Assembly: GCF_902729405.1 (NCBI RefSeq)
Contig: NZ_LR746496.1
Location: 434,001-498,000 of the forward strand
Direction: 5' to 3'
Length of the DNA stretch: 64,000 nt
DNA from: Acididesulfobacillus acetoxydans
Lineage (GTDB): Bacteria > Bacillota > Desulfitobacteriia > Desulfitobacteriales > Desulfitobacteriaceae
Part shown: piece by piece, positions 19,938-21,139 of the stretch
Layout: each line of letters opens with the position of its first letter
Position numbering within the stretch: position 1 is the first letter of the stretch
Program-made: the position numbers and the translations under genes
The notes under the pieces: generated by a model
Seen by the model: only the letters and a program-made list of their open reading frames with translations
The model's database searches: none
Told to the model about the DNA's origin: nothing

Positions 19938-20024
19938 ACCGCTTGCAAAATCCTGCGGTTAATCTTAGCATGGACGCAGTGGGTTTGGCCTAGACTTGCC
20001 ACACTAACGGAGGATATTTTCGCC

Positions 20025-20501
20025 ATGAACTTCACTGTTTACCTCTTAGGGGGAAAAATCGGGGGTTTCTACGTTGAAGCTCTGCATGAGTACGAAAAAC
20101 GCTTAAGCCGGTATTGCCGAATACGCCGGGTCTGCTTCGCGTCCGGCGAACAGCTGACGAGTGCTCTCTCACCCCGAACCCACAAGATCCTGATATCCCG
20201 CCGCGGCGGAAAATCGCTGTCCTCCGAAGCATTGGCCGACAGGATCAACACTTTAACCCTAGCGGGGATCTCGGAAACCGCCTTGATCCTGAGTGCGCCA
20301 GACTTGCTTCCTGCCCGGGCCGGGCCGTTCCCGAGCTCGCCCCTGAACGTCCCCGAGAAAACCGGCCTATCCCCTGGCGCGGACTATGAAATACTGACCC
20401 TGACTGCTTTGGACATGAACTTGGGCTTGCAGGCCACGCTGGTATACGAACAGATCTATCGCGCTTTTCGTATTCTCAGGCATGAACCTTACCACAAGTA
20501 A
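20025..20501 (+). CDS. RlmH-family paralogue lacking the SAM-binding loop
   Basis: A 158-residue protein that aligns end to end with RlmH (23S rRNA pseudouridine-1915 methyltransferase). N-terminal match: EALHEYEKRLSRYCRI. Middle match: KILISRRGGKSLSSEALAD. C-terminal match: YEQIYRAFRILRHEPYHK, the invariant RlmH tail. Where RlmH has the SAM loop (FxIGGSxG) this protein has LILSAPDLLPA, and where RlmH has TFPHQL it has ALDMNLG, so it should not bind SAM by itself. GGAGG lies 11 bases before the ATG. It faces the canonical rlmH, which lacks the tail. The function is unknown; a partner role is inferred. Confidence 0.8.
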   Translation: MNFTVYLLGGKIGGFYVEALHEYEKRLSRYCRIRRVCFASGEQLTSALSPRTHKILISRRGGKSLSSEALADRINTLTLAGISETALILSAPDLLPARAGPFPSSPLNVPEKTGLSPGADYEILTLTALDMNLGLQATLVYEQIYRAFRILRHEPYHK

Positions 20502-20503
20502 AA

Positions 20504-20551
20504 CCAGGGCTCTCCCTGGCTGGAGCCTGGCTGAAGCCGGGGGCATGCGGC
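20504..20551 (-). mobile_element. Orphan IS200/IS605-type end
   Basis: On the minus strand GCATGCCCCCGGCTTCAGCC is followed by AGGCTCCAGCCAGGGAGAG. This looks like the subterminal hairpin of IS200/IS605-family right ends, where the guide RNA of TnpB/IscB elements also ends. No transposase or TnpB gene is near. It lies just after the RlmH-like gene. Confidence 0.4.
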
Positions 20552-20671
20552 GAAGATCTTCGTCTGTACACACCGCCCCTCTGTCCTTGGATGGCACAAA
20601 CTTGGCCGAACCGGATTCAGCCCCGCGACTCTCTGCAGGTAAACTTTCACCGGCGAACACCGGGAAAACAT

Positions 20672-21139
20672 TCATTCCGGTTTCCCGACCAGGGTCCTGT
20701 CGAGCTGCTCCAATAGTGCCAAGCGTATCAGTTGATGGGGAAAAGTAAGCCGAGAGAAAGACCAGCGAAAATCGGCCCTCCTCCGCACCCTTTCAGCCAC
20801 CCCCAAAGAACCTCCGATAATAAAAACAAGGCCGGTCTTCCCCCGCTCCGCCACACTCTTCAGCATCCGCGCAAAGGCCGGGGAATCCATTTCCCGGCCT
20901 TCAACATCCAAGAGAATCACAAAATCGTCCGCACAAACTCTGCCCAGCAAACGCTCCCCTTCCCGGACCTTAACATTTTCCTCCTCCGCCCGAGAAAGCC
21001 TGGGTGGGCAGGGTTCATCCGCCACCTCCACGATATCCACCCAGGCGTATGCGGCCAGAGACCGCCGGTAAGCCACAATCCCCTCTTGCAAGTAACGTTC
21101 GCGAATTTTGCCGGCCGCTATGATTTTGATCCGAAGCAC
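20672..21139 (-). CDS. rlmH: 23S rRNA pseudouridine-1915 methyltransferase RlmH, C-terminal tail missing
   Basis: SPOUT methyltransferase of 155 residues. The N-terminus LRIKIIAAGKIRERYLQEG, the SAM loop LVFIIGGSLGVAERV and SFSRLTFPHQLIRLALLEQ match RlmH closely. After LLEQ the family continues YRAF..RGEPYHK, but this protein ends LDRTLVGKPE. I read the other two frames past that point and found no tail, so it is not a simple frameshift. The GTG at 21139 is the likely start. Upstream on the same strand are htrA and walJ, the usual Firmicute order. The missing tail is provided by the convergent RlmH-like gene at 20025, which may form a heterodimer with it. Confidence 0.9.
   Translation of the reverse strand: MLRIKIIAAGKIRERYLQEGIVAYRRSLAAYAWVDIVEVADEPCPPRLSRAEEENVKVREGERLLGRVCADDFVILLDVEGREMDSPAFARMLKSVAERGKTGLVFIIGGSLGVAERVRRRADFRWSFSRLTFPHQLIRLALLEQLDRTLVGKPE

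Follow-up and report, generated by a model that had tools for sequence, protein, structure and literature searches.

Neighbouring RlmH-family genes with complementary losses: a probable split of the rRNA methyltransferase RlmH in some Firmicutes

Two genes of the RlmH family face each other in the window, as we call the whole stretch of 64,000 nucleotides from Acididesulfobacillus acetoxydans analysed here, which is where the original prediction had placed them (Table 1). The minus-strand gene, rlmH-alpha, is adjoined by htrA and begins with a GTG that stands behind GGGGAGGGGG. It was said to keep the SAM loop and to lack the C-terminal tail, and indeed its match to the Pfam family SPOUT_MTase (PF02590, 1.3e-41) covers the profile only from position 1 to 144 (of 154). 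The plus-strand gene, rlmH-beta, had been described as aligning with RlmH over its whole length, with the tail present and the SAM loop missing, a description that also holds: its PF02590 match extends to the end of the profile, and its residues 2-158 match the solved RlmH structure of B. subtilis (1to0) with an E value of 1.4e-10. In addition, beta is devoid of the loop of about 20 amino acids that follows the second strand and carries K42 and R43 in E. coli.

Table 1. Features of the RlmH-family gene pair (window coordinates)
Feature	Position	Strand	Remarks
rlmH-beta, diverged RlmH paralogue, 158 aa, ATG start	20025..20501	+	no SAM loop, catalytic tail present; PF02590 2.7e-15
Ribosome-binding site of beta, GGAGG	20008..20012	+	
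Variable Pro/Ser-rich stretch of beta, in place of the SAM loop (bight 2)	20301..20378	+	longer in CEB3
Catalytic tail of beta, YEQIYRAFRILRHEPYHK, then stop	20445..20501	+	equivalents of E138, R142, Y152, H153 and R154 all present
rlmH-alpha, RlmH-family (SPOUT) protein, 155 aa, GTG start	20672..21139	-	SAM pocket intact, C-terminal catalytic tail missing
C-terminus of alpha, TLVGKPE and stop, in place of the expected YRA..RGEPYHK tail	20672..20695	-	tail absent in 17/17 alphas
TFPHQL of alpha	20729..20746	-	T126 and H129 of E. coli RlmH
SAM-binding glycine loop of alpha, FIIGGSLG	20801..20824	-	equivalent to E. coli GGPEG 103-107; role from PMC5430550

Both proteins belong to the RlmH family by PF02590, with 142.6 bits for alpha and 57.1 bits for beta against a cut-off of 27. 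The identity of alpha to the intact RlmHs of relatives reaches 57%, and that of beta to the nearest intact RlmH is about 40%. With NF000985, alpha scores 173.5 and by these figures narrowly passes the cut-off of 172; with TIGR00246 it scores 117.4, below the cut-off of 149.7. In annotation alpha may pass for a complete enzyme, and beta scores far under the NCBIfam equivalog cut-offs at which the RlmH name is given. The Pro/Ser-rich stretch of beta is of low complexity and varies in length, from 26 amino acids in the window to about 57 in Peptococcaceae bacterium CEB3. An AlphaFold model of beta, with two sequences as input, was poor (pLDDT 44), and a scan for promoters near the pair gave nothing above chance.

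A frameshift or a recoding event that would restore the alpha tail was ruled out, as no tail sequence lies downstream of LDRTLVGKPE in any frame of the window, nor in the other frames of CEB3 (G001). This genome, which belongs to the same genus as that of the window, carries the same convergent pair, with identities of 79% for alpha and 72% for beta, and the pair recurs in 15 further species, which argues against sequencing error and chance as its source. Nor does the genome hold a third rlmH that could make up for the losses, an outcome that would have spoken against the original prediction: no other PF02590 gene was found in the assembly, a single contig of 4.52 Mb and 98% complete. Alpha and beta together make up one complete set of RlmH catalytic parts in a genome with no other RlmH.

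The distribution of the pair was surveyed with PF02590 over 249 genomes spread evenly over the phylum, followed by inspection of coordinates, and with a profile built from six betas over 398 genomes, where betas reach at least 118 bits and ordinary RlmHs at most 96. Beta is present in 17 species of six families, and in all 17 a tail-less rlmH adjoins it. Conversely, among the matches listed for about 240 genomes, no tail-less RlmH was found without beta, save for copies at contig ends or decayed ones. The co-occurrence that had been proposed as a check is therefore as predicted, with neither partner found alone. Outside the family of the window, the pair lies in five more families: f25 (G103), f41 (G119), f63 (G306 and G452), f72 (G360) and f126 (G460). 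The two genes are in tandem in G119 and G460 and convergent elsewhere; since both orientations occur, the link between alpha and beta is no by-product of a convergent overlap. Four further candidates were not counted as pairs: G010 and G169 are contig-edge cases, and G308 and the second copy of G183 are frame-broken genes with the tail kept. A contig search with a three-beta alignment returned CEB3 and one weak match (27%), in the gammaproteobacterium SCGC AG-212-F23 (L042).

Some relatives have a single complete rlmH, but these are without beta and so leave the idea of a split enzyme standing. Within the family of the window, G016, of another genus, has the pair, and G004, G012 and G018, of the same genus as G016, each carry a single complete rlmH without beta. 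In family f63, beta is present in all ten genomes of genus g194, each with a tail-less alpha, and absent from the nine genomes of genus g102. The family of the window also contains genomes at the other extreme. RlmH was not detected in any of the roughly 31 genomes of genus g6, complete ones included; G003 retains decayed remnants of alpha and beta together, still convergent, and both G003 and the related G005 have rlmH remnants only. The modification made by RlmH seems to have been lost repeatedly in this family, and the function is dispensable there, as genus g6 lives without a detectable RlmH; the pair could therefore have changed its role.

These absences and remnants could also be taken as a sign that RlmH is on its way out in these lineages and that the pair is a passing pseudogene stage. 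We consider this hardly credible, because the losses are reciprocal and not random, the pair is kept in ten of ten species of genus g194, and dN/dS ranges from 0.16 to 0.27 for both genes. Between the window genome and CEB3 the ratio is 0.20 for alpha and 0.27 for beta (the latter with the insert left out), and the medians within genus g194 are 0.16 for either gene. Such low values indicate that both genes are maintained under purifying selection.

What each protein has lost is best read against the enzyme of E. coli. RlmH (YbeA/OrfX, COG1576, PF02590) is a homodimeric methyltransferase acting on N3 of pseudouridine 1915 of the 23S rRNA, in the decoding region of the ribosome, and both alpha and beta show homology to it from end to end; htrA, which lies next to alpha, also adjoins rlmH in several relatives. 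Koh et al. (2017, PMC5430550) showed that the two subunits of the E. coli dimer contribute differently to a site, the SAM pocket being supplied by one and the C-terminal tail by its partner. Activity was not detectable in the mutants E138A/Q, Y152F, H153F and R154A, and kcat/KM of R142A was at least 30-fold weaker (PMC5430550). The RNA-binding patch proposed for this enzyme is likewise composite: K11, K42 and R43 belong to the subunit that gives the SAM pocket, and R25, R26, R142 and R154 to the one that gives the tail (PMC5430550).

We aligned 50 intact RlmHs, nine alphas and nine betas with E. coli RlmH and scored positions taken mostly from the published work, to which Y141 and P128 were added as nearly invariant in intact RlmHs. 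On the tail and RNA side, positions 25, 26, 141, 142, 152, 153 and 154 are invariant in the 50 intact proteins (154 being K or R). As the cells were chosen with the alignment in view, the following counts are descriptive and no formal test: on this side beta keeps 63 of 63 cells and alpha 13 of 63, and on the SAM side (103, 104, 107, 123, 126, 128 and 129) alpha keeps 59 of 63 and beta 14 of 63. G103, G107, T126 and H129 of the SAM pocket are kept in all nine alphas of this table, and G107 and H129 are lost in nine of nine betas and T126 in eight. The catalytically essential Y152-H153-R/K154 are absent from all alphas and kept, together with E138 and R142, in nine of nine betas; E138 does not discriminate between the two proteins, as all alphas keep it too. 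Judged from this alignment, alpha has lost the tail plus much of the remaining tail-side surface, and beta the SAM side plus the K42/R43 loop. The reciprocal losses therefore reach past the motifs noticed at first, to the RNA-contacting R25/R26 and to Y141/R142 in alpha.

This pattern bears directly on a second reading, offered from the outset as an alternative, in which beta is a regulator or decoy that pairs or competes with RlmH, and alpha functions as a homodimer that can do without its tail. Beta does lack the SAM loop, and convergent genes could allow antisense or expression control. However, a decoy would have no reason to retain the whole set of 63 cells of the catalytic tail and the RNA contacts when alpha gives them up, tail loss was seen only where beta is present, and tail mutants of the E. 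coli enzyme are inactive (PMC5430550). With every catalytic tail-side residue kept by beta, this role has become very improbable.

The proposal of a split enzyme, in contrast, gains support from the sequence comparisons, that is, from the missing third copy, the co-occurrence and the reciprocal losses. Most probably, alpha and beta would form an obligate heterodimeric RlmH with one composite active site that methylates pseudouridine 1915 of the 23S rRNA. Alpha would bind SAM in its knotted pocket; beta would bind none and would lend its C-terminal tail (the equivalents of E138, R142, Y152, H153 and K154), along with the RNA-contacting KR pair, to the pocket of alpha. Each dimer would then hold one complete composite site, directed at pseudouridine 1915, and an opposite site devoid of both halves. 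A single site per dimer would be enough because each ribosome has only one target to methylate. Reduced activity remained in an engineered SPOUT dimer in which one subunit was dead (PMC4409310), and a review infers that a single cofactor site of RlmH is used in catalysis (PMC9508554). The physical association of the two proteins, their activity and pseudouridine 1915 as the current substrate are inferred.

A third reading accepts the heterodimer and gives it other work, either on another site or RNA or as an assembly factor that binds the ribosome. Beta is diverged (the closest intact RlmH is about 40% identical to it) and has no K42/R43 loop; moreover, the SPOUT heterodimer mt-LAF5/6 of the Trypanosoma brucei mitoribosome was seen on an assembling ribosome, in a structure where its orientation does not suit methylation (PMC12123411). 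Against a new target stand the presence, once in the pair, of every residue needed for RlmH catalysis, the conserved SAM pocket of an alpha under purifying selection and a genome without any other RlmH. We therefore regard a change of target as unlikely, although less so than a regulatory role for beta.

The evolutionary paths of the two genes differ. When alphas and intact RlmHs were placed on one tree, with the tail columns left out, the alphas did not form one clade (rejected with p-AU 3e-6) and were scattered among the ordinary RlmHs of their own lineages: the G016 alpha clusters with the complete rlmHs of its genus, as does the G119 alpha with the complete RlmH of G331, from the same family. 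The alpha state requires seven changes on this tree, at least three of them forced by well-supported branches. This dispersion, with a single clade rejected, indicates that the tail was lost several times, and the split of RlmH has probably happened several times independently in some Firmicutes. Betas, in contrast, are one clade (support 100/99), a grouping that could be helped by shared deletions and in which several betas sit on long branches. Identities between families are higher for beta than for alpha (54% against 44% between the window genome and G119, for example), which may fit a lateral movement of beta or merely reflect its lost variable loops.

The history that we would favour, with rather less assurance than the heterodimer itself, is that a single beta gene derived from RlmH settled beside complete rlmHs in several lineages of the phylum. 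Beta would have arisen once and perhaps moved between lineages; beside it, the tail of each resident rlmH would have become redundant and decayed. With that decay the pair would have become obligate, a parallel passage from homodimer to obligate heterodimer.

Trm6-Trm61 and METTL3-METTL14 are eukaryotic Rossmann-fold methyltransferases, unrelated to SPOUT enzymes, in which SAM binding has been lost in one subunit. They resemble the present pair as two-subunit RNA methyltransferases made from related subunits (PMC5007650 for Trm6-Trm61; PMC10908127 for METTL3-METTL14). Closer by fold are mt-LAF5 and mt-LAF6, two SPOUT methyltransferases that naturally pair as a heterodimer on the large subunit of the T. 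brucei mitoribosome; however, they come from a eukaryotic organelle and are likened to 2'-O-ribose methyltransferases (MRM3, RlmR) instead of RlmH, and no reciprocally divided composite site is described in the available portions of both reports (PMC12123411, PMC8316566). Mixed dimers of the nosiheptide-resistance methyltransferase also methylate RNA with one inactive subunit, so that one working subunit is enough, but they are engineered, carry one point mutant and have reduced activity (PMC4409310). A SPOUT heterodimer has further been suggested for yeast Ygr283c/Ymr310c (PMC1829167). In a search that was not exhaustive, mt-LAF5/6 was the only natural SPOUT heterodimer found described, and no heterodimeric or split RlmH was found in the literature.

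The composite site, with the SAM pocket of one subunit and the tail of the other, is the working principle proposed here as in RlmH; the difference is that the known enzyme is a homodimer of complete subunits, and here each subunit misses one half-site. The novelty thus appears to lie in the split architecture and its apparent parallel origins, the chemistry and the fold being as known. Since each subunit appears to keep its own half only, the pair is a natural counterpart of a complementation experiment on a two-subunit site that had been defined by mutation. With it, the composite-site model can be tested directly, as can the question whether a dimer with a single active site is sufficient for work on the ribosome; the parallel, repeated loss of the tail beside a single paralogue makes a clear-cut example in which to study how obligate heteromers evolve from homomers.

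Three minor observations concern rlmH 3' ends and extra copies. In most of genus g194 (L053, L072, L119-L125), the 3' ends of alpha and beta share 10 bases on opposite strands, which places the final codons of alpha antisense to those for HK and stop in beta. G183 has a second, frame-broken rlmH copy (G183:C1:2442771-2443246; L057/L065) some 7 kb away from its intact rlmH. Finally, in G168 a diverged piece of rlmH, comprising roughly its last 30 codons (G168:C1:2792850-2792945; L062, also L048), lies some 2.5 kb downstream of the complete gene, in the same orientation. Staphylococcal SCC elements insert at the 3' end of rlmH, and this fragment could be the scar of an element inserted at that site.
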